Positions 27,023 through 62,101 of a stretch of DNA of 64,000 bases are shown here, piece after piece. Source of the stretch: a virus; the IMG/VR virus record IMGVR_UViG_3300044712_001462, positions 160,529-224,528 of that record. One strand, 5' to 3'. The notes under the pieces are model-generated. The model was not told where the DNA came from. It saw only the letters and a list, made by a program, of their open reading frames with translations, and ran no database searches. Made by a program: the position numbers and the translations under genes. Each line of letters opens with the position of its first letter. The stretch's first letter is position 1.

Positions 27023-30000
27023 TTACGCCATCGAGGCTCTCGACAGCTCTCCACCTCCGCCACCTTGCGGATAAAACTGTCCCCAGAAGTTCTTCATCGT
27101 ATCATCGTCTTTGTCCTGGTTTTGAGCCAAGAGCTGCCCCAACATTGCACTGGTAGCGTTAGGCTCTCCTCCGTCCCGCGCAATCGACGGAGGAACCGGA
27201 TCACGGTAACGCGGACTCAAACCAATCTGCGGAGCGAGTCGGTTATAGTCACTCAGCACATTACTTTTACCGTTCTGCCACAGACCCTTTATCAGATCCG
27301 TAAGACCTCCACCCTGCAGCATCGTGCCTAGACCCTGCATGACTGGGGACTGCGACATGGCATAAGCACCCGGAAATGCGCCTCGTATGCCTTCTTGAAC
27401 ACTATTCTGTACCTGACCTGGCAACTCTTTCATACGCTCATCAACATACTGCTTGCCCTGGTCCATCATCTGCTGACCTCGATCCAGGAACGACTCACCC
27501 ATGGCCTGTCCCTGATCCATAAACTTATTACCCATCGCGTCAGCACGACTTAATGTGTCATTGCGCATGTTGTTGGCCATATAGAGACCCGTGCCCATCA
27601 TGCCCGCACTAGCCGCCACAGGACCGTAGGGAGCCATTGCCTTAGCCGCGGGAGCCGCATTACGAATAACCGTACCAGCACCTTGCCTCAAAGCACCGCC
27701 AGCGCGCCCCACTCCTGAGCGGAAATAACCAGACGCCTGCGCCGCACCCGGAATAGCCTTAGGTAGAGCCTGAGTCGTCATTGACGATGTTCCTGCCGCA
27801 CGTGCAGCATTCAAGCCCGCAAGTGCCTCGGGACTACCGGCAGGGCCATGTGGAACAACCGACCCGCGATAACCACTGGGAACCTGAGGAGATGCAAGAG
27901 GTCGAGCTGCACCCGCATTATTTGCAGCCGCCCTAGCGGCATCATCCGCTGTGTTCATGACACCTTTGGCAACGTCGTCTGTCATCCCAGCCGCACCACG
28001 AGCCACGTCGTCTGCTGAACCTGCTACACCTTTTGCCACATCATCAACACTGCTGACACCCTGTCTAAGCAGACGCGGTGCGAGCGATTTCACACCAGTC
28101 CAGAGACCCTTACCGATCGTTATTGGATTAATCGCTTGTTTCTCCGAAGACAACTTTGTCTGGAACGGACTTTTCGGAGCGGCTAAAGCCGGAGACTTTG
28201 GAACAGCACCGACAGGATTAGCCATCTGGTTGCCACCGGATCCCGGAGGCGAGAACGTGCCATGTGTCTGTTGTATGTTCTTAGGCATTGCCATCTGATT
28301 CATGCTAGGATTGAGTGAAGCGCCCGTAGCAGGGCTGGGTTGAGCCATACTCTTATTCCAGGCTTGAGAGTATTCAGGTGTCATCGCTAACCGCGCATCT
28401 TGTTCAGGTAGACCGGCTTTACGGCGCATTTGACTATCCTGCATGTACGCGGCAACCGGTTCCATAATACGACCATCAGGCCCGTATCCGTACCGATAAG
28501 GTTTACCGTCAGGCTGCGACAACGTGCCACTGGTTTGTTGCATCATCTTACCTCTTGGATCACTGGATCCTGAGCCAGCCATCTGGGGAGCCTGCTGCGG
28601 AGTCATACCCGGTGTTCGTATAACCGGACCAGGATTAGTTCCACCCAGCATATTGCCACCCGCTACATCCTGAGACGGATCAGGCTTACGCACACCTGCC
28701 GTCTGCGGCGCTTGCAACGCGGGATTGTTAGCCATCAGCTCCTGAGATTGCTGCATCTGAGGAGCCTGACCCGGGCTCGCCGGTTGTCCACCCGCTGAAT
28801 AAGTAGGGCTTCCACTTCGACGCATCGCCTCTGCCCGCTCATACTTCTGACGCATCGCTTCGCGCATGCTGATCTGAGCCGGGCTGAGACTGTACTGGGG
28901 CTCTGGTTTTTGCGCTGCCGCGATCATCGGACTGCCGTCAGGCCGCAATACAGGCCTTCCATCCCGACCAAGAACGGGATTTAGTTGTCGGCCCGAGCCA
29001 CCTGCCCTGTTTGGCAAATATCCACCACCAGGTGCGGTCATGGGCATCCCATTCGGACCCATCAGCCGTGTTCCACCGCCAGAAAGCTGATTGTCCACAG
29101 CCTCTCTATTAGCGCGATTACGATTCATGCGTTGCTGAGCACCCCAAGCTTCCTGACCTTGCTGGCTCATGCCGCCGGGCATCACCGGAGCATTAAGGGA
29201 TGCCTCAGTCTCCGCTCTCGCCTTCGCAGAAACTTCATCAGCAGAAAGCCCTTCATAGCCGGGATTAGATGGTGCCGGTCGAGGAATAGGCGCAGCAGGC
29301 GACTCACCAGGTGCTGCACTACCTTGAGCCGGAGCATTCTGTCCAGAGGGCTGTAATTGGTTCGCCTGCCCCATCGCCTGAGGTGCTTGCATCGCAGGAG
29401 CAGGCGGAGCTGTCATCTGCTGAGGCTGACCGCCCACTGTCTGGGTCTGACCGCTATTCGCAAACGAGGGGTTATTCCACTTCGTGTAATCAGGACGCTG
29501 ATCGGGCTGTACACTCTCAGGAGCCTGCGCCTGCATTCGCTCAAGCCTTCGAACTTCACTTCTATTCCCAGCTCGCCGAGCCCGATCAAGCTGAGGCTGG
29601 AAGCGACTCGCCCACTCCGGAGGACCGGCTGGTTGTTGTGGGGCTTGAGGAGTTTGAGCCAAAACAGGCGTCACAGGAGCTTGCAGAGCCGGATTAGCTG
29701 GCGGCTTCGGACCCGCTTGCATCGCATAATCGTTGATCATACCCTCGCCAGACTGCGGAGCGCCTTGCATTGCATAATCGTTTATCATCTCTGTGCCACT
29801 CGGTAAGTCCTTACGCTCACCGACTGGTGAATTCGGATCCCAAGGACCTTGGCCAGCCATCTGATTGGCCAAAGCACCGGCTGACCAGGGCTTCGTAGAG
29901 CGACCTGTCTCATAGTCCTTCGCGCTAACGGGATTGGTGTTATTCGCAATGTCATGCACGACCTGCGGAATCACACCCTGTTGCTGCTCACGATCAAAGG

Positions 30001-31795
30001 CAGGCCCTGGGTGGTATCCTCCAGATCTACCCTGCATAGCACCACCGACAGCATTGAGGCCTAACATATTTTTATTAGCACCGGTCCACCAATTTAGCTT
30101 GTTTCCTAATTCGCTCATTACTGTACCGATTGGTCCGCCCATCCGAGCTAGACCACCACCCAGCAGCGCATACGGAGCCGTATTTAGAGCCTGTTGTGCT
30201 CCACCCATAGCCATGTTTGCACCAGTCCGCAATGCAGTATTCACCGCATCTTGTTTGAACGGCTCAGCCTCTTGCCGAATCTTGTTATATTCGTCACCAG
30301 TAGCAAGCGTCTGTGTGTTGTAGGCATGCTCTGGCCGTTGGGTATAATCCGCATTCATACGCGGATCCACAGAGTGACCCACATCTTTTAAACCCGACCG
30401 CACAGTCCGCAGACCCCACTCCCTGGCTTTATCCGCAAACTCATCCAAGCCAGCTACTGTTTCCGAATTAGGAGCCATCCATTTTAAAGGCTCAGTGACC
30501 AGCTGACCGGCCAAACCGCCTACATTTGCGAGAGCACCCGCGCCAGTAAAGGCCTCACCTTGAAAAGCCCTCCAGGCGTTTTCAGGTCCGCGAGTGTACG
30601 GACCCAGATAGTAATCCCAGCTACGCTGAGCCTGATGATCGTCTATAGCGCTTCGAGCAACACTCTGCCTATTCTGTTGGTCTTCGTAGTCCTGCTGGTA
30701 ATTATTCGCGTTGATACCTCTGGCTAGCCGCTCGTTTTGAGCAAGACCTGACTCTTGTACCTTAGCCCGTAACGCGTCCAGTCCAGGAATCGGAGGAGAT
30801 GCTGCCGCTTGACTTCCCATCGCACTCACCCTCGAGGGAGGAGGCGCTTGCTGGGGCATATCTCTGCGCAACGACTGCGTGAGTTGATCCGCAGCAGACA
30901 GTTGATTACCAGGAGCCGGTTGGCGAATCTGCAGGTCTTTTTCACCGCTCGGCGGCACATAACTGCCGCCAGTAGGATTCGGAACAGGGGCACCTTGAGT
31001 CGGCATGGGTGCTTGCAAAGCGGGATTAGCCGGAGGCACAGAAGGAGCTACAGGCGATGCCGGTGGCTGCTCGGGCGATGGGAGACCAGCTGGGTACTTA
31101 TCCCGTTGAGCCCAGGCAGAATCCACACCACGACCGTAAGAATCATTCTCATACCGAGCAAACGGATTCACCGCGGGATTACCCTGCGGGATATCTTGCT
31201 CCGACACTGGGACCAGCTCCACTGAGCTCTTAAACAAAAACCCACTCTTACCTACCGGTGGCATAATGCTATCCACCTTCTTGTTCCGAGCCACGTCCTC
31301 CAGGCTCACCTCGGGCCCGCGAGCATCTGGAGCGATCTTCCACTTCGGACGAACCTGACCAGAGGCCGCAACGCGCAAAGTACTCGCTAACTTCGTAGGT
31401 AACATCGGGGGAGCCATTCCGTGAGTTGTAACAGAGCCGGGAGTCTGTATTCCCTCTCTGTTCGCAGGTTGAGGATACTGAGGACTTGCTTTCAGAACGG
31501 TACGAGGTGGAACCTTTGAAGTAACAGGACCTTCACCAGGCATATAGATGGCCCCAGCTTTGTTCAGAAGCCCGGGCCCGCCAGGTATAGACGGTTTGTC
31601 CTGTTGGGTCTGCGGCTGCAGATGAGGAAACATCTTGGCTAAGAAAGGATGCACAGGACGACGCTGAACAGCGTTTTGACTCCCCATGCCCAAGACAGAA
31701 GCTGGACTAATCGTTGTCCTGGCCAACTGATCGTTAGAACCGACCGTCGGCATCCGCATGGGATCTTTAGCAAATCCAGCCATTGTGACTTCCAT
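27023..31795 (-). CDS. Giant low-complexity protein, probable virion component
   Basis: 1590 residues, the largest product here, rich in P, Q, A, G and M. It repeats NPALQAP at least three times, MINDYAMQ twice and QQT(S/H)GT(L/F)S twice. Toward the C-terminus is a run of VDDVAKGVAG/ADDVARGAAG units, then a hydrophobic stretch (AAPAAKAMAPYGPVAASAGM) and a polar helix (RADAMGNKFMDQGQAMGESF). The C-terminus is glycine-rich. Nothing identifies an enzyme. The position after portal-linked genes suggests an internal virion or ejected protein. ATG 31795 or 31783 may be the start. Confidence 0.7.
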   Translation of the reverse strand: MEVTMAGFAKDPMRMPTVGSNDQLARTTISPASVLGMGSQNAVQRRPVHPFLAKMFPHLQPQTQQDKPSIPGGPGLLNKAGAIYMPGEGPVTSKVPPRTVLKASPQYPQPANREGIQTPGSVTTHGMAPPMLPTKLASTLRVAASGQVRPKWKIAPDARGPEVSLEDVARNKKVDSIMPPVGKSGFLFKSSVELVPVSEQDIPQGNPAVNPFARYENDSYGRGVDSAWAQRDKYPAGLPSPEQPPASPVAPSVPPANPALQAPMPTQGAPVPNPTGGSYVPPSGEKDLQIRQPAPGNQLSAADQLTQSLRRDMPQQAPPPSRVSAMGSQAAASPPIPGLDALRAKVQESGLAQNERLARGINANNYQQDYEDQQNRQSVARSAIDDHQAQRSWDYYLGPYTRGPENAWRAFQGEAFTGAGALANVGGLAGQLVTEPLKWMAPNSETVAGLDEFADKAREWGLRTVRSGLKDVGHSVDPRMNADYTQRPEHAYNTQTLATGDEYNKIRQEAEPFKQDAVNTALRTGANMAMGGAQQALNTAPYALLGGGLARMGGPIGTVMSELGNKLNWWTGANKNMLGLNAVGGAMQGRSGGYHPGPAFDREQQQGVIPQVVHDIANNTNPVSAKDYETGRSTKPWSAGALANQMAGQGPWDPNSPVGERKDLPSGTEMINDYAMQGAPQSGEGMINDYAMQAGPKPPANPALQAPVTPVLAQTPQAPQQPAGPPEWASRFQPQLDRARRAGNRSEVRRLERMQAQAPESVQPDQRPDYTKWNNPSFANSGQTQTVGGQPQQMTAPPAPAMQAPQAMGQANQLQPSGQNAPAQGSAAPGESPAAPIPRPAPSNPGYEGLSADEVSAKARAETEASLNAPVMPGGMSQQGQEAWGAQQRMNRNRANREAVDNQLSGGGTRLMGPNGMPMTAPGGGYLPNRAGGSGRQLNPVLGRDGRPVLRPDGSPMIAAAQKPEPQYSLSPAQISMREAMRQKYERAEAMRRSGSPTYSAGGQPASPGQAPQMQQSQELMANNPALQAPQTAGVRKPDPSQDVAGGNMLGGTNPGPVIRTPGMTPQQAPQMAGSGSSDPRGKMMQQTSGTLSQPDGKPYRYGYGPDGRIMEPVAAYMQDSQMRRKAGLPEQDARLAMTPEYSQAWNKSMAQPSPATGASLNPSMNQMAMPKNIQQTHGTFSPPGSGGNQMANPVGAVPKSPALAAPKSPFQTKLSSEKQAINPITIGKGLWTGVKSLAPRLLRQGVSSVDDVAKGVAGSADDVARGAAGMTDDVAKGVMNTADDAARAAANNAGAARPLASPQVPSGYRGSVVPHGPAGSPEALAGLNAARAAGTSSMTTQALPKAIPGAAQASGYFRSGVGRAGGALRQGAGTVIRNAAPAAKAMAPYGPVAASAGMMGTGLYMANNMRNDTLSRADAMGNKFMDQGQAMGESFLDRGQQMMDQGKQYVDERMKELPGQVQNSVQEGIRGAFPGAYAMSQSPVMQGLGTMLQGGGLTDLIKGLWQNGKSNVLSDYNRLAPQIGLSPRYRDPVPPSIARDGGEPNATSAMLGQLLAQNQDKDDDTMKNFWGQFYPQGGGGGELSRASMA

Positions 31796-35676: not shown

Positions 35677-38586
35677 TTAGGCCGCAGCGGTAGCTGGTGA
35701 CGAGGCATTTGTGGGCCCGCCAAACTGCTGCTGCATGAGCATCGCGCCACCTTGCATTTTTGCTTGATTGCGAATCTGATTCATCTTGGCCTTAACGAGT
35801 GAGTGAAGTACCTCATTCTTCTTGGCCAATGCACGAAGCTCACTATCCTTGACCGGTTCCGGTAAGCCAAGGAGTTCTTGAGCCAGCGACTCAGCTGTCT
35901 GCAACATCTGCTCAGGAGTCTGAGGCATATTGCCACTCGCCATCAGTCCCGTCACTGGCGGAGGCGTCATAGGCATACCCGTCGCCGGATCAACTTGACC
36001 CTGACCGCCAGCCGCAGCAGGATCCGCAGGTTGACCAGCAGGCATACCAGGCTGAGCTGGCATCCCTTGAGCTACTTGCGCACCCATTGCGGACTGATCC
36101 ATCTGTTCTTGCATCTCTTGCTGAGCAGTCTGCTCGGCCATGGCTTCTTCCGATTGCGCCTTAAGCTCGTCTCTGTACTCCAGGCCCAGCGAACGCAGAC
36201 CAGTCGTACGACTTACCAATCCGGTTGTCATCAGTTCCAGCAGAGCCATGTGACGCTGCAGATCGTCTGCGTGAGTAACCCGCTTATGGACTGCTTTGAT
36301 CGACTCCCAGGAAAGAACTCGAGAGATGCGTTCGACGAGCCAATTTAGGAATCGGTTGTTATCGTGAACCAGGTGATGCCATGTCGCCTCAAACAAACGC
36401 AACGAAACCGGGGCCGTCTGCAACTGAAGCGTGCCTTTGTACAACTCTACCGGCGTACCAGCACCGTTGAGCAGAGTCTCCAAGCCCTGATCCAGCAACT
36501 CGCGGGGTGCTAAAGCAGCTGCATCACCGCCCAAAGCCTGATACTGAACAGGGAAGGGGAGTGTGGACCACGAGGCGGGATCTCTGCGGCGCTTACGGAT
36601 CATTGATCGAACTTGGCCCATAAAATCGCCGCCGTTCATCGATAGCAGGGGATCACTAGCCATCCCTCCACTACCTCCCTTTACCGCGGGAGTGATTAGA
36701 CGGAATGGAATTACATAATCCAGAGCAATCGCTTCGTTATACCGGTGGAGAACCTGAACATACCAAGCTTGCCGGAAGTTCGTGAGTAACCGGGTAATAC
36801 CCCAGCCTCGATTCTGTCGACCACCCAGAGTGGCTTCTTTCATGTGATGGATAACACCGGGATGGAACCGGAAAAGCTGATTCTTCTTAATCGCTTCCAT
36901 CACCTGCTGAGGACACCGCTCTAAATGAAACAGCGTTCCTTCCCGTACTTGGCGCTTGTAGTCCTCGGGGATCTTCCAGAGATATGCCACGTCATCCGTG
37001 AACTGGTCATGAAGGATCTCGATGTCGTGTGGCGACCAGTACTTGAGCTTCAAGGCATCTGGGCGATTATCAGGCTCATCCTTCAACTTCCAGGGTCCGC
37101 GGTAGCCTGAACCGGTTTTGCACTTGGGGCACGTCGCCGTAAAGCTGAAGTCATTGCTAAATTTGAATTTGAAGTCTGGGTTCTCGTAGACATTCTTCAG
37201 GACAACCTGAAGACCGCATTTCGGACAACACATAAACCGACGGAAAGGAACCTGCAACGACGTGAACGCATTACCATAGCAGTTGCCGGTTATCACAGCC
37301 TGCTCAACGACAAACGAGTGCGTTTCCATCTCCACACAGCAGAAAACGTCATCTGTTATGCCTGTGGGACGCGCTCCCTTAACGCGGATAAACTGGCCAT
37401 ACGAAGTTGGCTCGAAATTTCTCTCAAACTTCTCTCTATGTTTCTCCAGCAGGAAATCTTGAGGCAACATGAACCGCTTCAATAACGTCACATAGTACAT
37501 AGGGCCTGTATACGACTCCACAGACCCATCCGACCTAACAAAAGACGAGGTTCGCGTATGTTCTCGTACGGGTCCAGTACACATTCCTATTCTCGGCAGT
37601 TGCTCAACTATACGCTCGAGCGTTATGCGAGCACTCTGGGTCAAAAGTGCACAACCGTAAGTATCAACCGACCCATCGGCAGCCAGAAATCCGCAAACGA
37701 ACCCGTACCAGTAACTGGCACTTTTATCATTCTCTGGTAGATCCTTATACCTGGCCGGTAGGCCGTTCTTAACAGCCATCTCCTCCCGGGACGGTGGCCG
37801 AGTCACTTCAGAACCATACCCGTCGAAGTAGGGTAGTACCTCAATTTTATCCCCAAAGAAACAGGCCGCTGACTGACACCCTTCGTTATACCGAGTACCA
37901 TCTCCAAACACGAAACCGTGGCGTACACCTTCCCGGAATTCCTCATTCTGTTCGGGACGCGGCGCTACCGTGCGCTCAATCCGATGGCCATCAATCAGCT
38001 TTGTAGTGGGAATACGCACTAATTTGTTAGTACTATTCTTAACGATCCACTCATGCTCTGGTGTAGCCAGCACCGTTCTGCCGTCGCTAAACTCGACCTC
38101 CCACAGCGGCTGGCGTCCAAATGCCTTGAACGTTGCCGGACGATAAACTCCACCTTCGGAAAGCACATCAACTGTCTGACCCTCCAGATCGCGCAGTTTG
38201 AACACCCCGTTGCGTGTAACTGCCTTCACGTCACCGTGAAAGCACATACGATCCATGCCGCGTTCGAACAAAAACGGCATGACACCAATATTGGTAAACA
38301 GGTTCTGCCACTTCTCTTTCTCGTCGTCCCCCAGCGTATCTCGAGAGTCCGTGGCTCCGAAATCTACGTCTGTCAGGAAGTAGGCCACGATGCGCTGCAT
38401 GGCCATCTTGTAAGTCGACTGAGCCTCGAACACATACTCAGCCATCTTCAAAACGCTGCGGATATCCTCCGGCATCGAGAGACTGGCCATATCCAGCCAC
38501 GGGCTCGGAAACGCATCGGACCCCCTCGCGCTACTAGCCCAACCACCAGCCGGATCCATCTGCGAGCGCATTGTAAACAGACTCAT
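35677..38586 (-). CDS. Portal protein with an internal intein
   Basis: 969 residues from ATG 38586 (AGGG seven bases upstream; ATG 38592 is next to it). Removing the 321-residue intein leaves about 648 residues. PEDIRSVLKMAEYVFEAQ and AYGN-type CYGNAFTSLQVPFRRF, a zinc-ribbon-like CCPKCGLQVV...CPKCKTG, then LRLFEATWHHLVHDNNRFLN and a P/Q/M-rich tail are typical of a large myovirus/siphovirus-type portal family with a Cys ribbon. It would form the dodecameric vertex that admits DNA. The splice joins RGMDRM to CYGNAF. Confidence 0.8.
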   Translation of the reverse strand: MSLFTMRSQMDPAGGWASSARGSDAFPSPWLDMASLSMPEDIRSVLKMAEYVFEAQSTYKMAMQRIVAYFLTDVDFGATDSRDTLGDDEKEKWQNLFTNIGVMPFLFERGMDRMCFHGDVKAVTRNGVFKLRDLEGQTVDVLSEGGVYRPATFKAFGRQPLWEVEFSDGRTVLATPEHEWIVKNSTNKLVRIPTTKLIDGHRIERTVAPRPEQNEEFREGVRHGFVFGDGTRYNEGCQSAACFFGDKIEVLPYFDGYGSEVTRPPSREEMAVKNGLPARYKDLPENDKSASYWYGFVCGFLAADGSVDTYGCALLTQSARITLERIVEQLPRIGMCTGPVREHTRTSSFVRSDGSVESYTGPMYYVTLLKRFMLPQDFLLEKHREKFERNFEPTSYGQFIRVKGARPTGITDDVFCCVEMETHSFVVEQAVITGNCYGNAFTSLQVPFRRFMCCPKCGLQVVLKNVYENPDFKFKFSNDFSFTATCPKCKTGSGYRGPWKLKDEPDNRPDALKLKYWSPHDIEILHDQFTDDVAYLWKIPEDYKRQVREGTLFHLERCPQQVMEAIKKNQLFRFHPGVIHHMKEATLGGRQNRGWGITRLLTNFRQAWYVQVLHRYNEAIALDYVIPFRLITPAVKGGSGGMASDPLLSMNGGDFMGQVRSMIRKRRRDPASWSTLPFPVQYQALGGDAAALAPRELLDQGLETLLNGAGTPVELYKGTLQLQTAPVSLRLFEATWHHLVHDNNRFLNWLVERISRVLSWESIKAVHKRVTHADDLQRHMALLELMTTGLVSRTTGLRSLGLEYRDELKAQSEEAMAEQTAQQEMQEQMDQSAMGAQVAQGMPAQPGMPAGQPADPAAAGGQGQVDPATGMPMTPPPVTGLMASGNMPQTPEQMLQTAESLAQELLGLPEPVKDSELRALAKKNEVLHSLVKAKMNQIRNQAKMQGGAMLMQQQFGGPTNASSPATAAA
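37282..38244 (-). mobile_element. Intein with LAGLIDADG homing endonuclease
   Basis: 321 residues inside the portal frame. It starts with Cys (CFHGDVKAVTRNGVFKLRDL, splicing block A) and has block B at VEFSDGRTVLATPEHEWIV with TxxH. It ends FCCVEMETHSFVVEQAVITGN, block F/G ending in Asn, followed by extein Cys+1. The residue before Asn is Gly, not the usual His. Two dodecapeptide-like motifs (VRHGFVFGDGT and YGFVCGFLAADGS) mark a compact DOD endonuclease, so it may still home. The reading frame is intact, so splicing is expected. Confidence 0.85.
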
Positions 38587-38603
38587 ATTCATCCCTGACG
38601 CAT

Positions 38604-38663: not shown

Positions 38664-38858
38664 TCAATTACGGCAGCAACCGCCGTCCCTGAAAGCTTTT
38701 AAAGCTTCTGCATTGTCCGATCGGCAGCAACAAGCAGCTTTATCCGCCAGCCGCTTACAAACATGCTCCTCCAGCTGGTCCGCCGAAGCGCACTTTGTTT
38801 CATCCTCGGGAGGGGTCACACCCTGTTCGATCGCACCTGTTTTTACCATTTCATCCAT
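38664..38858 (-). CDS. Small Cys-rich protein
   Basis: 64 residues from ATG 38858; GGAGG lies nine bases upstream. Acidic first half (GVTPPEDETKCASADQLEEH), then CKRLADKAACCCRSDNAE and GGCCRN with seven Cys in the second half. Possibly a zinc- or disulphide-stabilised capsid-associated protein. Overlaps the upstream stop by eight bases. Confidence 0.55.
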   Translation of the reverse strand: MDEMVKTGAIEQGVTPPEDETKCASADQLEEHVCKRLADKAACCCRSDNAEALKAFRDGGCCRN

Positions 38859-39630
38859 ATGCGTATTCCTCCGCCGCAGAAATCATGGCATCCGCTTTCT
38901 CCTCATCCGCAATAATCAGATTGATCTGGGAGAAGATGCCGAAGTTGTGAACAAACCCCAGACTAAACACATTCCAGGTCCGATTCGTTGCCGAATGCGA
39001 GACCTTAATCGTCCTGTCCTTACCAAAACTCGGAGGCTCGAAAAACGTTCCGAACTCAAACCGTGAATCATAAACCAGGAACAGACCACCATCCTGCTCA
39101 GACACCCAGTGATACGAGCTGGTGATCTTTCCCCCAGCACCCATATCAAACGTCACCTTGTGTTTTGGCTTCTCGGGCTCCGGGCCCAATCCCGGAATCC
39201 CCAGAGACTCAAAAACCCTGTCCAGAATGTCGGCTACCGCGGACTTAGCGATCCGATCATCGTCTGCAGCCACAGGCTCTTCTCGATCGCTCAGCTGAGC
39301 CTCCAGAGCCTCGATCTTCGCTACTAGCGCCGACACGTCCACAGTCTGAGGTGCACTCGTCTGAGACGCTTTGGTCACCTTCTTCTTCGCCGCGGGCGTC
39401 ACCTTCTTCGCCATAGTCTCTTCATCCTGTTCTACGATGTCTTGCATGTCCTGCATCATCTGGGCCATATAGTGATAAGCCAATACCGTGCGATCCTCCA
39501 CGGAGCTGGTTTCCCGGGCTGCGCGCTCAAAAGCCGCTTTCGCCTGTTCTGGACTAATCTGTGCCAAATCCAGCGGCATCCCGCCTTCAGCTAAGACGTC
39601 GGCACTGGTCTTAATCGTTGTGATTGTCAT
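38851..39630 (-). CDS. Hypothetical protein, possible virion component
   Basis: 259 residues from ATG 39630, right after a strong terminator; AGGTGA lies five bases upstream. N-terminal helix (QISPEQAKAAFERAARETSS), a lysine/alanine linker (AKKVTPAAKKKVTKASQTSA), coiled-coil segment (VSALVAKIEALEAQLSDREE), and a beta-rich C-terminal domain (KVTFDMGAGGKITSSYHWVS). No family recognised. Lies immediately before the portal gene. Confidence 0.6.
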   Translation of the reverse strand: MTITTIKTSADVLAEGGMPLDLAQISPEQAKAAFERAARETSSVEDRTVLAYHYMAQMMQDMQDIVEQDEETMAKKVTPAAKKKVTKASQTSAPQTVDVSALVAKIEALEAQLSDREEPVAADDDRIAKSAVADILDRVFESLGIPGLGPEPEKPKHKVTFDMGAGGKITSSYHWVSEQDGGLFLVYDSRFEFGTFFEPPSFGKDRTIKVSHSATNRTWNVFSLGFVHNFGIFSQINLIIADEEKADAMISAAEEYAYG

Positions 39631-39645
39631 GTTCACCTGATAAGT

Positions 39646-39685
39646 AAAAAAAAAAGGGCAGTGCTGACAAATGTCAGCACCACCC
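39646..39685 (-). terminator. Strong rho-independent terminator
   Basis: GTGCTGACA (39661-39669) pairs perfectly with TGTCAGCAC (39672-39680), extended by GGGC/CACCC; the minus strand continues with a run of ten T. It lies just after the 478-residue gene and 16 bases before the next start codon. Confidence 0.9.
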
Positions 39686-39716
39686 TCCCCCAACCGTCCA
39701 CCCAGACAGTAAATCA

Positions 39717-41153
39717 CTAGGCGGCGACCATATCTCGCTGAGTCTTCTGTTGCTGACGCTTGTGCGTGATTCGGCGCGTGTCAGGAATTCCTACTCGGAA
39801 CATGACGTCGCCAATCTGCACCTCACGTTCCCCACGATAGCGCATCGGCGGGAGCATGAAAACCTCAGCTGCCTCGTCCAGACCGAAAGCCCGACGGAAA
39901 TCCCAATACCAAGACACTCCACCACGTTCGCGGCGAGCCTGATCCAGAACCGACGTTACGTAGCTCATCTTCAACAAGGGACCCGACACCGTCGGGACAC
40001 GCACGACACGGGACTGGAGGAACTTATCCACCAACCACATGAAGTGCTCCCCGGTCTTTTCACGGAGCTGGGCCTCGGTATAGAAACCGCTCGGGACATC
40101 AACCGGGAAACTCGCCGGAAGCACAAACTCACCGGTCTTGAGATCTTTGAGTATGTCCAGCACCAACGTGTCAGAAACCTGGAAGTTTCGCAGCATGGTC
40201 AAATGCTCGAGCGTGTCGCTGGAGAACTCCACGAGCACATCCGGAGCCCACACACTGGGATCCTGAATCACTTCCGGAGTTCCACCGGGGGTGATATTTT
40301 TCTTGTCACAACCCAACACTGCATTGTTCATGATCTCCTGCATTTCATTGCAGACATCAAACAAAAAGCAGTGATGCTCGTCATCAAGATTCCACGATGA
40401 CGACGGAATACCACGCATCAACCGAAATCTACCCTTCTCCATCTGGGCTCGCGTATATCGGCAAGTCTTACGAAGAGTGACTACCACGGTCTTCGGATCT
40501 ACCTCGCCTACTACCTCCACACAATTGGGCTCCGGCATGGTGCCTACAGCCAGAACCGCCCTGGGATCCTTGCCTAAGAAGTCAGCTACATCAAACCGGT
40601 ACAACGCAGCCCAGTCGCCATTCGGCAACTCGCCAAGACAGACATCCAGATAATCTGACTTGGCGCGAGTCTGCCGGACCAACCGCAGCACACCCGGTTC
40701 CCCGGTTAAATCAGCCTTCAACGGACCAATGTCCGGACACTCCAGCTTCATCTGATGCATACGGTGCATAGGTTTCGCGAAGTCCACGTAGCAGAAGTGA
40801 TCCGGATCGCTATTCACAACCACGCTGTCTCGAACCAGTCGACCGTCCTGCAAAATCGCCGGAGTTTCTATTTGTCTTCCACGCACTGATGCATTCTTGT
40901 ACGGCTGATCCCACATCATCAGGAACTGAGCATCGTTGTGATGCACGACCGGCCCTAATGGGCGGTGCGAATAAATTCGCTTACCCCCCAAATGAATGTA
41001 ATTCCAGCGTGGAACTACTGCGATCTGTAACAGATCACGCCGGATTTCGCCCAGCAAAATTGCCTTACCGCCAACTCGTTGATACTCCAACCGGTAAACT
41101 TCCTGAGCCTTGTTGTTGCCTTCGCCCGTCTCTGGATTTTCAATACGGAACAT
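39717..41153 (-). CDS. Unknown 478-residue protein, probable virion or packaging protein
   Basis: 478 residues from ATG 41153 with AGGGGGG upstream. No family recognised. Beta-rich, with DVCLGELPNGDWAALYRFDV and SVLDQARRERGGVSWYWDFR as its most distinctive stretches, ending MAA-like after a basic KRQQQKTQRDM. It is not obviously a HK97-type capsid protein. Position between DNA-metabolism genes and the portal, and flanking terminators, suggest high or special expression. Confidence 0.6.
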   Translation of the reverse strand: MFRIENPETGEGNNKAQEVYRLEYQRVGGKAILLGEIRRDLLQIAVVPRWNYIHLGGKRIYSHRPLGPVVHHNDAQFLMMWDQPYKNASVRGRQIETPAILQDGRLVRDSVVVNSDPDHFCYVDFAKPMHRMHQMKLECPDIGPLKADLTGEPGVLRLVRQTRAKSDYLDVCLGELPNGDWAALYRFDVADFLGKDPRAVLAVGTMPEPNCVEVVGEVDPKTVVVTLRKTCRYTRAQMEKGRFRLMRGIPSSSWNLDDEHHCFLFDVCNEMQEIMNNAVLGCDKKNITPGGTPEVIQDPSVWAPDVLVEFSSDTLEHLTMLRNFQVSDTLVLDILKDLKTGEFVLPASFPVDVPSGFYTEAQLREKTGEHFMWLVDKFLQSRVVRVPTVSGPLLKMSYVTSVLDQARRERGGVSWYWDFRRAFGLDEAAEVFMLPPMRYRGEREVQIGDVMFRVGIPDTRRITHKRQQQKTQRDMVAA

Positions 41154-57633: not shown

Positions 57634-60600
57634 TTAGGCGACTTTGATATATCCGCGGTGCGGAATCCAGATTTTCTTGGTGTCACCACCCTTGATAAAT
57701 CCATCTTCATACTGTGTCCAACCCGCATACTTCGGGTCTAGATCAATTGCAAAACAATCATCCGGGGTCATCGAAACACCCCAGGACTGCACAACTTTCG
57801 TATCCACGCCGAAGTGATACGGCCCAGTTCCGAGCGGAACACCATCCATAGACGTGGGATATAGTGGCACTCGCTCACACATGCACAGCGGCAATATTTC
57901 TGTGAGCACTTTCGGCACATGTTTAGCCGGAGCCATGACCATCAAAGCATCATGCACCTGTAGACAGATGCGGTAATCAATATCATCAGCGGTTGCGCCT
58001 GCGGCCCAGGCGTTCTCGCGGTAGTCATAGAGTTCCGCCACAGCCAGACTGATGGCATCTGCCACCATTCCCTGAATGGGAAAATTCATCGACTGGCGCT
58101 CAAACTCACCCCGCTGTTTGGCCAACCTGATAGCCGGAAACCGTCGGTAACGACCAAATGGGCTACACAACCAACGGGGTACCACATCCGGGTTGCTGTC
58201 CGGATGCGCTGCCAGGAACTTTTCTCGCGACCAGTGGTCAGGTCCTACCGCTCTCCAGCGACACTCATCAAACAACGTTGACAGACTGGGGTAAAGCGCA
58301 TCGAGCGCAGCAACGATTCGCTCGGCATCCGAGACCGAAACAAACACACCCTCTTCTTGAGCACCCAGCGCAATCGCCTTAGGACCTCGACCGTAAGCTC
58401 GGCCGAATATCACGGCCTTGGCTACAATCCGCATGTGTGCTTTATCGATAGAAGCCAGACCGGCTTTTGTAGGCGGGCAATCGAACCCGAACGCTAACAC
58501 CGCCACATTCGAATGAATGTCGTAGTAATTCGGATGATCTTCTGGCAGCTGATTGCGTAACGCATGATCCAACATCACCGGATCGCCTGACAAAATCGCC
58601 ATTACAAACAGCTCAGCACCAACATAGTCGGCCTCTACCAGGCACCAGCCAGGCGGAGCGCAAAGAACACTGCGCAGGGGAGACACATACTGATCACCCA
58701 GAATCCGCTTATAATCGGGTTCACGGCGTGCGCTGAGATTCTGCAGAGGCGGCCGAGCTGACGACCACCGGCCGGTTTCCTTGGTCTGGTAGATCGTGGT
58801 ACGAACTCTGCCATCACCACATACCCAGCTGGGCAACCCTTTGTCATACATCAGGTTCCCGTCATCATCATGCTGATAGGACACACCCCCGCTTTCGTCA
58901 TCTTCAGACATCGGAGGCCGGAGCACTGACTTCAAAACCTGACTGATAAAGCGGTAATCCCGGATCCAGCCGATCGGCTTTCTCAGATTCCGAACTACCC
59001 ATTCACCCTTCCGCCACACCTTCAGCTTATCCGAGCCATGCCACAGAATACCGAGCGTCATCTTATCGGTACCGGGTGTGGCTTCATCTTCCTTCTTTGC
59101 TTCAACCACCTCACTCCATTGCTTCACAGGTTTACCGGTTGCCACCAGTGGCTCTGTGGCAATCGACTTTGCACCCTTGGGTCTTAGCCTGGGGCGCTTT
59201 CCTTTCACCTTCTCCTTCCCGTTGTACTTTCTTCCAAACAACAACTCGCGAACTTCAAACGGAGAGTTCAAGTTGAGATTAGGCCAACAAGCCCAAGTCT
59301 TAATCTTCCTCTCCAGCTCGTTCTTCGCATGCATGTACCGCTCAGTCAGGGTCGCAACTCGTTCGCGATCCAAGACCAAACCAGTACGGGTGATCTCCAA
59401 TACTGCCAGCGTAGCCTTCTGGCTAATCCAGTACGGCTTCCAACAGTTATTACCAAACTCATCCGCATACAACGCTTTCATGTGCCGCATACATAGGCGA
59501 TACGTCACATCCGCGTCATAAGCGCCGTAAGGTACCAGGATCTCGTCAGGGCAGTCTCCGTAGCCTTCCAGAGCCGCCTTCTCGATACCTTGCTGCCGAC
59601 AGTAATCCGATTTCCACTGATTCAATATCGCGTCGTAGCGAGGCGCTGTCGTGTAAGTGAGAACTTGTCCTGTTAACGAGAAGTCGCCTGTCTCATCCAG
59701 GGCATGCGCCATTAAGGCAGTATCCAAACCGCCTTTCTCTGGCATCTCTTCCCAGGTAGCTGGAGCTGCGAACTGCTTTCTCAGATCCAGGCCCGCCGGA
59801 ACGAGCCATTCCAAGTCAGCCACGAAGTAGTGTCCACAAGGACGCTTGTCCTCCATGAACTTCGACAGGATCTTCATCGCCCGAGCCTGTCCACCATCCG
59901 TCGTAAACTGTTTCTTCCAAACCTTTCCGTCCTTGCGCACAAACTGCTTGAATGCAGGGGCACCCCCAGCATGATTCAGTTTGATGACCGCGGCTTTCTT
60001 CTCTGCCCAGCTCAGCTGAACCGTTCTCAGATAGGCTCCAGGGTTTTCCGGATGGTCACCGTGCCACTCGGCATCCATGGCGATGATGCGGTTGGTGGTG
60101 GTCTGGTTAATCTCTTCACAGAGAGCCAGTAATTGTGCCTCATCTTCAATCAGCCGGTGATCCAGACCTTCCTCAGAGACACAACCATTACCGCCTGCCA
60201 CCAGATCAGAGAATCTGCGTAAAGCCTCCGTGAACTGAGGAGCCGCATCCGGCTTATGCACAATGGCTGACGGGTGCATACAAGCCATCGCTTTGACCTT
60301 GAGCGGTGGAGTGTCATCCTCCTCGCTCGTCGCCATTGAGAACTCAAGATCGATTACCTGGCCCGCAATACCAGTCAAAGTAGCCTGCTTACCGCAGAAC
60401 ACCTTTACCGCTTCCGAGCCCAACATCAGGATGAACTTCGGCTTTACCAGCCTGATTTCCTGCTGCAAGAGAAAAGCCTGGTCCGCAATCCAACGAGGCT
60501 TAATCGCCCCTTCCCCATTTATGAGGTGCTGCGTCTTCAAAACACCCGTTACATACCAGCGCCGGTAATCCGCCACACCCAGCTTCGCGAGAGTCTTCAG

Positions 60601-60990
60601 TAGTTCATTACCCGACTCGTCAGAGAACCACCGACACTTCTGCGCATCGTCCGTGGTCAACGTCTTACCTACTACCATTACGTCACAGGGCTCAGGACCA
60701 CGGGAGCGCCAATCATTGTTCTCTCCACAGTTCCAGCGATGCCCTGAGACGACGTTAAACATCTCTGATCGGCCTGCCTTCGTCTTCAGTGCCAGATGTA
60801 ACTGACCCCTCCCATACAAGGCATTCTCGATCAAGGCTTCCAGCTTCTTACCCACTGTCTGTAGGCGCTGGACCCGTCCCTTCTTATCCGCCACAACCTC
60901 TGTGTCATCACCCAGAGCCGTGGCAGCCAACAAAAACTCTTCACCAGGAATAGGCATCCCTGGCGCTGTAATCGGAAACAACGCAGCCAC
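57634..60990 (-). CDS. Family A DNA polymerase with uracil-glycosylase-like N-terminal domain
   Basis: 1118 residues from GTG 60990, with AGGAG four bases upstream; an upstream TTG gives eight more residues. Residues about 102-264 (DVMVVGKTLTTDDAQ, KFILMLGSEAVKVFCG, MHPSAIVHKPDAAPQ) resemble a family 4 UDG fold without the catalytic motif. Exo motifs follow: MDAEWHG (Asp306), HYFVADLEWL and YGAYDADV. Palm motifs: A at EADYVGAELFVMA (Asp788), B at RIVAKAVIFGRAYG, and C at LQVHDALMV (Asp1014), where Ala replaces the common Glu. Replicative polymerase with proofreading. Confidence 0.9.
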   Translation of the reverse strand: MAALFPITAPGMPIPGEEFLLAATALGDDTEVVADKKGRVQRLQTVGKKLEALIENALYGRGQLHLALKTKAGRSEMFNVVSGHRWNCGENNDWRSRGPEPCDVMVVGKTLTTDDAQKCRWFSDESGNELLKTLAKLGVADYRRWYVTGVLKTQHLINGEGAIKPRWIADQAFLLQQEIRLVKPKFILMLGSEAVKVFCGKQATLTGIAGQVIDLEFSMATSEEDDTPPLKVKAMACMHPSAIVHKPDAAPQFTEALRRFSDLVAGGNGCVSEEGLDHRLIEDEAQLLALCEEINQTTTNRIIAMDAEWHGDHPENPGAYLRTVQLSWAEKKAAVIKLNHAGGAPAFKQFVRKDGKVWKKQFTTDGGQARAMKILSKFMEDKRPCGHYFVADLEWLVPAGLDLRKQFAAPATWEEMPEKGGLDTALMAHALDETGDFSLTGQVLTYTTAPRYDAILNQWKSDYCRQQGIEKAALEGYGDCPDEILVPYGAYDADVTYRLCMRHMKALYADEFGNNCWKPYWISQKATLAVLEITRTGLVLDRERVATLTERYMHAKNELERKIKTWACWPNLNLNSPFEVRELLFGRKYNGKEKVKGKRPRLRPKGAKSIATEPLVATGKPVKQWSEVVEAKKEDEATPGTDKMTLGILWHGSDKLKVWRKGEWVVRNLRKPIGWIRDYRFISQVLKSVLRPPMSEDDESGGVSYQHDDDGNLMYDKGLPSWVCGDGRVRTTIYQTKETGRWSSARPPLQNLSARREPDYKRILGDQYVSPLRSVLCAPPGWCLVEADYVGAELFVMAILSGDPVMLDHALRNQLPEDHPNYYDIHSNVAVLAFGFDCPPTKAGLASIDKAHMRIVAKAVIFGRAYGRGPKAIALGAQEEGVFVSVSDAERIVAALDALYPSLSTLFDECRWRAVGPDHWSREKFLAAHPDSNPDVVPRWLCSPFGRYRRFPAIRLAKQRGEFERQSMNFPIQGMVADAISLAVAELYDYRENAWAAGATADDIDYRICLQVHDALMVMAPAKHVPKVLTEILPLCMCERVPLYPTSMDGVPLGTGPYHFGVDTKVVQSWGVSMTPDDCFAIDLDPKYAGWTQYEDGFIKGGDTKKIWIPHRGYIKVA

Positions 60991-60991
60991 T

Positions 60992-62101
60992 CTACTCCTG
61001 CTTTCGTCTAGCAAAACTCACTTTTAACTTCCTCCGTGCCGCCTCCGCCTGGATGAGTTTGCGCATGTAGATGCGATCCATCATTCCAGGATCTGTTCCA
61101 GGCGGCAGATAGATGGGAACAACTTTCCCGGCCAACCTGGGCTGAGCGCTCAGAGCCTCGAACGCTTTCGCGATATGATGCGGCTGCCCTTCTTTGTGAT
61201 CCGGAGGTAAATCCGGATCCAACATCAGCACAACTACATCCTCTTTCTCCACCATTTCCACAATCAAACGAATCTGAGCCGGGGCCACGCTCTTACCCAG
61301 TAGCCCCATCGCCTGCGCACCGAAGTTCCACACATCCGACGGGCCTTCCACAATCACTTTTGTGCTGTACCGAATAGCATTGTCGTAGTTGTACAACACC
61401 TCGCCTTTGCGAATCCCCGGCGTGGTAAACCACTTTGGGCCCATGTTGTCATCATCCAGCACCCGACGACACTGCCAGCCCATCAGCTGATTCTTCATAA
61501 TGATCGGGGCATACAGCCGATTACGACACAGTGCATAATGCGACTCAATGATGTAGCCCACCCCGAACGTTTCAGCGACATACCGTGGATCAATCAGACG
61601 ATCCCACAAATACTTCAGAGCCGGGTGATTAGGATTCGTCTTGCAGATGTCTTTGAGCGACCAGGGTGGGCCCGGAGCCACTATCGCTTCACCCCGAGGC
61701 AATCTCTTCTTCTGTGTTTTAATAGAAGACAAATCCACCGATCCGCTGCGGCAATCTTTGAGCCATTCCCACAGCTTCAACCCACCACCGCTGGCTAAAC
61801 ACTGCTCGTTGTAGCACTGTGCCAGCCAAAGGTTGCGATTACACGTGTGCCTATCCGGCTTCCCCCAGCGATGATTGATGTACAGTCGCTTCCGCGTATC
61901 CCCACAAAACGGACAAGAGATGCGATATTCCTCCCCAGATACAACAGGGTCAAGCTTCTCGTAGGACTGCTTGACCCCATTTGCTCTCCGGGTGAATTGC
62001 TGATACGAGGCTTCCATCTCCAGGCCCTCGTTTACGATCGTCACATGCTCTTCTCCTCCTAATCGATTCACCAACTGTCGATACAACTTCCGATTTAGCA
62101 T
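60992..62101 (-). CDS. DnaG-like primase with zinc finger and Toprim domain
   Basis: 369 residues. CPFCGDTRK and CYNEQCLASG give the four-Cys zinc site (residues 63, 66, 96, 101) of CHC2-type primases. KVIVEGPSDVWNFG and VVLMLDPDLPPDHKEG are the Toprim Glu and DxD motifs. It would prime lagging-strand synthesis. Directly in front of the polymerase gene; ATG 62101 overlaps the helicase stop (TAATG). Confidence 0.85.
   Translation of the reverse strand: MLNRKLYRQLVNRLGGEEHVTIVNEGLEMEASYQQFTRRANGVKQSYEKLDPVVSGEEYRISCPFCGDTRKRLYINHRWGKPDRHTCNRNLWLAQCYNEQCLASGGGLKLWEWLKDCRSGSVDLSSIKTQKKRLPRGEAIVAPGPPWSLKDICKTNPNHPALKYLWDRLIDPRYVAETFGVGYIIESHYALCRNRLYAPIIMKNQLMGWQCRRVLDDDNMGPKWFTTPGIRKGEVLYNYDNAIRYSTKVIVEGPSDVWNFGAQAMGLLGKSVAPAQIRLIVEMVEKEDVVVLMLDPDLPPDHKEGQPHHIAKAFEALSAQPRLAGKVVPIYLPPGTDPGMMDRIYMRKLIQAEAARRKLKVSFARRKQE

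Follow-up and report, generated by a model that had tools for sequence, protein, structure and literature searches.

The locus raises the question of whether a long open reading frame of a virus genome encodes a phage portal protein with an intein inside it and, if so, how such an element would splice and spread. The window analysed is a 64,000-nucleotide stretch (positions 160,529 to 224,528) of the IMG/VR record IMGVR_UViG_3300044712_001462, which comprises 224,528 bases and belongs to a large uncultivated phage (224 kb). The host ORF, a putative portal protein precursor, occupies positions 35677–38592 on the reverse strand, as do all other features of the window given below, and forms an uninterrupted frame of 971 aa. 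It consists of an N-extein of 116 aa with the C-terminal end ...RGMDRM (38245–38592), an in-frame insert of exactly 963 nt, or 321 aa (37282–38244, ORF residues 117–437, CFHGD...VITGN), and a C-extein of 534 aa (35680–37281). The last base of RGMDRM is 38245 and the first base of CYGNAF is 37281, which confirms the placement of the insert exactly between these motifs in the initial annotation. Without the insert, the exteins meet at M|C (116 + 534 aa), matching intein-free homologues. The GC-content of the insert is 51.4% versus 53–54% in the exteins, and the composition is uninformative.

The block A (Cys1), block B, terminal Asn and two dodecapeptides recognised earlier in the insert were all located. 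Cys1, the class 1 nucleophile, is encoded at 38242–38244. Block B reads ATPEHEW, and its TPEHEW part (38047–38064) includes T61 (B:7), H64 (B:10) and W66 (B:12). Block F (37306–37353), with the sequence VFCCVEMETHSFV, contains C302 (F:4; 37339–37341) and H309. Block G, AVITGN (37282–37299), comprises T319 (G:5), the penultimate G320 and the terminal N321, the latter being Gln in some members of the family. The second nucleophile, the +1 Cys (37279–37281), belongs to the C-extein, where it starts the CYGN motif. The LAGLIDADG motifs HGFVFGDGT (37894–37920) and CGFLAADGS (37669–37695) carry Asp115 and Asp190, respectively, both intact in the window copy.

In the proposed profile search, the insert alone matched the Pfam model Intein_splicing (E = 1.7e-4), at 21.9 bits, under the curated cut-off of 35.8 bits; the match to the NCBIfam model intein_Nterm (E = 0.07) was also under the curated cut-off. 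In alignment A1 of the family, Intein_splicing matched 11/11 members (best E = 4.1e-8), intein_Nterm 10/11 and LAGLIDADG_3 9/11 (best E = 5.2e-5). The structure of the insert, predicted from the 11-member alignment, reached a mean pLDDT of 93.6 and a pTM of 0.90. The best PDB matches found with Foldseek were complete inteins with LAGLIDADG endonucleases (E from 6.7e-15 to about 1e-11), including TliVMA (6.7e-15), PI-PfuI (2.5e-13), PI-SceI (1.8e-11) and PhoVMA, followed by free LAGLIDADG proteins (e.g., I-Tsp061I) and mini-inteins. The insert thus combines a predicted Hint fold and blocks A, B, F and G with nucleophiles at C1 and C+1, and its endonuclease part joins two dodecapeptides with acidic residues to an alpha/beta fold match. 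Given the Intein_splicing match, the matches of alignment A1 and the Foldseek E values, the intein reading goes beyond chance; chance motif matches are ruled out by the fold and the conserved family. The insert is very probably a mobile intein of full length, in which a LAGLIDADG homing endonuclease with two motifs is placed within the Hint splicing domain; splicing, its class and endonuclease cleavage are inferred.

Portal genes are single-copy and essential in tailed phages. The exteins have matches in Salmonella phage Arash, to a gene with the annotation portal protein, and in Vibrio phages D69, D148 and D181, to a hypothetical protein. The window portal had no match among curated portal families, and some homologues gave weak matches to PHROG portal families. 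The model of an intein-free homologue (L062) is of moderate confidence (pLDDT 65.7), and 50/50 listed PDB matches of it are portal, connector, neck or unique-vertex structures of phages or tailed viruses. Since this homologue is predicted to fold like phage portals, the host gene is taken to be a portal gene. The insertion point falls at a helix–strand boundary, directly before YGN(A/S)F, which is near-invariant in the portal family. Not far behind the junction, the portal has a putative zinc ribbon, CCPKCG...CPKC (37120–37230; CCPKCG at 37213–37230 and CPKC at 37120–37131), which also occurs in intein-free portals, among them those of Arash and D69, where Pfam zinc-ribbon matches are weak; CCPKCG begins at residue 18 of the C-extein and not ten residues after the junction, as had been thought. 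Of the neighbouring genes, only the upstream one (38851–39717) is recognisably common to the window and four relatives, unlike the large gene downstream. Positions 27023–31795, three genes downstream from the portal, encode a 1590-aa protein with no Pfam or PHROG match; Arash and D69 have a gene of about 4.6 kb closely after the portal, without detectable tblastn similarity to it. The window also encodes a family A DNA polymerase (57634–61014; Pfam DNA_pol_A, E = 2.5e-35) whose N-terminal domain resembles uracil-DNA glycosylase (Pfam UDG, E = 1.6e-10).

When IMG/VR was scanned with the intein and with its alignment, about 30 loci were detected. Near-duplicates and one ribonucleotide-reductase case were set aside, which left 24 complete and distinct portal inteins for comparison, the window copy among them. 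Other uncultivated phages in IMG/VR thus contribute at least 23 distinct copies, 41–64% identical to the window intein, and the 24 range from 295 to 336 aa in length. All the portal inteins found begin with Cys and precede a +1 Cys, and all share one portal site, before CYGN or CFGN, even where the portals are only 25% identical. Five (L006, L045, L056, L057 and L058) end with Gln instead of Asn (LTKQ, LTSQ or LSHQ), L058 having a His-Gln end and Ser at G:5. Scanning with the portal alignment gave 518 related stretches; among the best 80 of these, one (L066) contains the intein and 79 are uninterrupted. Intein-free portals align across the exact junction with no residue lost, as the initial annotation had proposed to check, and empty sites with the same junction include RDRM|CYGN (L062 and L064) and DYL|CYGN. 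The +1 residue is Cys in 25/25 occupied sites versus 20/65 empty ones (Fisher p = 5.5e-10, relatedness ignored), the empty sites having T, C, A, S, V or I. The portals of L050 and L063 are 80% identical, one with and one without the intein. The intein fold, the portal fold and the intein-free homologues together bear out the earlier claim of a LAGLIDADG intein in a portal gene. In genomes of 84,980 species of bacteria and archaea, a scan with alignment A1 found no relatives, and none of the cultivated phage records contained this intein in a portal.

The nearest inteins by sequence are those of phage ribonucleotide reductases (Thermobifida phage P318 orf7, Vibrio phage ICP1 NrdA, certreviruses, Barbavirus and others), which align over all 321 aa, with 34.6% identity for P318 and 21–26% for the others. 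They share two LAGLIDADG motifs, Cys1, Cys F:4, mostly a penultimate Gly and the +1 Cys, and the P318 intein is the sister of the portal intein clade (support of the portal clade 90). They differ in host gene and insertion site. The members P318, L060, L035 and L037 have the Trp and Thr as well as Cys1 and Cys F:4, whereas ICP1-type inteins have Phe or Tyr at B:12, hence an incomplete Trp-Cys-Thr (WCT) triad, and mostly end with Gln; a Gly-Gln end is also known from the ribonucleotide-reductase intein of phage phiCbK (PMC3556154). Portals had been considered to be outside the usual intein hosts of phages, yet Kelley et al. (2016) listed six portal (PORT) inteins in mycobacteriophage cluster C1 (PMC5050341). 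The likeness known from that listing is one of host gene type. The search of the window intein against Mycobacterium phages gave four records only (E up to 10), the one listed being a partial match (65%) with 29% identity. A phrase search for an intein in a portal matched no paper in the literature covered, outside which most subscription journals lie. The portal inteins are of a known kind and form a new family of alleles, which is widespread and lies in a rarely reported host gene.

The penultimate Gly had been pointed out as odd in place of His. The Gly itself was confirmed, and it is ordinary: the portal intein family has G, K or S at this position, with H once, and Gly, Lys and Ser are likewise found there in phage inteins (PMC5050341). 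The class 1 Bethlehem RDF intein is not impaired by its penultimate Gly, the replacement of which by His (G316H) led to precursor accumulation; it differs in host gene, and no WCT signature is stated for it (PMC5050341). The notion that the penultimate Gly marks a dead intein was rejected, as G, K or S are usual in the family and documented in other phage inteins.

The intein appears, from sequence comparison, to have moved between distant phages. In carrier pairs, the mean identity is 54.5% for the intein versus 33.3% for the C-extein, and the intein is the more similar of the two in 256/276 pairs; the window and L010 have inteins 59% identical in portals 25% identical. The ratio of intein to extein divergence is 1.59 in close pairs and 0.48 in distant ones. 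A ratio above 1 in close pairs and below 1 in distant pairs is not explained by an intein that evolves slowly throughout; the drop is expected of transfer, and saturation could contribute in part. Independently of this caveat, AU tests on maximum-likelihood trees of intein and portal rejected each tree with the data of the other (p = 1.3e-4 and 6.5e-59), and this conflict supports homing. The recent clades common to both trees show that inheritance was vertical once the intein had arrived. The LAGLIDADG aspartates were lost in three copies, L016 (both Asn), L055 (Ala, Glu) and L045 (second Ala), which retain every splicing residue. Such a pattern would be expected if splicing is selected while the endonuclease decays after fixation. 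In close pairs, dN of the intein is well below dS, a qualitative observation only, with dS near saturation.

The reading of the insert as an ordinary domain of the portal family has next to no probability. It could appeal to the occurrence of the relatives searched in portals and ribonucleotide reductases only, yet relatives are inserted in unrelated genes, the insert has an intein fold and a history differing from that of the portal, and the empty sites, in 79 of the best 80 portal stretches and with complete junction residues, led to the rejection of this reading. It is also improbable that the insert is a degenerate intein that retained the fold and lost splicing, or whose endonuclease is dead. 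The weak scores against curated models and the loss of LAGLIDADG aspartates in some family members speak for degeneration. Against it, the window copy has all the splicing residues, both LAGLIDADG aspartates and an open frame, and a portal burdened with 321 residues beside the conserved GN(A/S)(F/Y) motif would probably be unable to assemble.

A more serious alternative concerns the mechanism of the same intein. Alignment to DnaE inteins places W66, C302 and T319 at B:12, F:4 and G:5. Class 3 inteins are characterised by Trp B:12, Cys F:4 and Thr G:5, with Cys F:4 as the first nucleophile and the nucleophile at position 1 generally absent (PMC3196547, PMC7891396, PMC5050341). As the portal intein has this WCT signature, C302 instead of C1 could act as first nucleophile, and the intein might work like class 3: C302 would attack the N-terminal junction and Cys1 would be dispensable. 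This route seems possible, if rather unlikely. In its favour, the Trp and Cys are kept in 24/24 portal inteins and the Thr in 23/24 (one Ser), and the same residues occur in the class 3 inteins MP-Be DnaB, M. smegmatis and M. chimaera DnaB1 and Dra Snf2. The DnaB1 inteins have the highest identity (22–25%) among the PDB matches with a splicing domain only; the splicing-domain profile also matches a WCT-engineered gp41-1 mutant (6riz, E = 0.012), with unmodified gp41-1 absent among the matches listed. Class 3 inteins differ in the penultimate residue, which is His in them and Gly in the window intein, and, above all, in position 1. Cys1 is present in 24/24 portal inteins and 11/11 ribonucleotide-reductase relatives (35/35 in total), whereas a dispensable residue should drift; the class 3 absence of Ser, Cys or Thr at position 1 is accordingly not found here, and the window intein was not filed as class 3. 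Cys F:4 also occurs in class 1 inteins, which are polyphyletic in this respect (PMC3196547). That Cys1 does not vary speaks for a first step of class 1, and the preserved triad leaves room for class 3 or both.

The combination of the two sets of residues has parallels. Tori and Perler reportedly described inteins with WCT and Ser1 or Cys1 in 2011, namely Catera Gp206, Nocardioides TOPRIM and T. fusca Tfu2914, and these share the class 1 and class 3 residue mix of the portal inteins; in Catera Gp206, a nucleophile presumably occupies position 1. Catera Gp206 is a class 3 intein (PMC3196547), which speaks for the class 3 route. As mixed-signature inteins were already described, the portal intein belongs to a known class of element. 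The three earlier examples are single cases in other host genes, whereas the portal inteins form a whole clade. Every copy in it unites the class 1 Cys1 with the class 3 Trp-Cys-Thr, the state expected of the proposed phage ancestor of class 3, and the clade has the residues that such an ancestor would need.

By the favoured class 1 mechanism, Cys1 would attack the upstream peptide bond after translation, the acyl group would be transferred to the +1 Cys, and cyclisation of Asn321 with ligation of the exteins would follow. Excision of the intein would join residue 116 to the following Cys and yield a portal subunit of 650 aa. The endonuclease would cut intein-free portal genes at the DNA encoding D-x-x|C-Y-G-N, and the gap would be repaired with a copy of the intein. 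A coupling of portal assembly to splicing by an active intein, as suggested in the initial annotation, is plausible.

Other inteins were also observed. A second, unrelated family of portal inteins (L005, L051 and L134; ORF residues ~50–460) lies at a different site, (L)RW|CEY/CEF, where it precedes the Cys, and a single portal gene contains both families in L005 as well as in L051. At +1 of this second site, the window portal has Ala (MAEYV) and no insert. In the same phage genome as the window, an AAA+ ATPase gene (G000:C1:143234-144541, reverse strand, equal to L033:12790-14760; host Pfam match AAA_lid_3 under cut-off) contains an intein with the canonical end VVVHN|C and LAGLIDADG_3. A third intein (CFHPD...MLVSN|S) lies at G000:C1:116.5-122.3 kb (reverse strand, L032) in an open frame of 1933 aa, which looks like a fusion of the beta and beta-prime chains of RNA polymerase and has the motif NADFDGDQM. 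With the portal intein, this single phage thus has at least three inteins, which belong to different families and lie in three genes.

The same insertion site for an intein, in a gene for a structural protein of the virion, recurs across deeply diverged large phages, which means that homing targets extend past the genes of nucleotide and DNA metabolism. Gene-finders and family models that overlook the insert will misread the portal genes of this phage group.
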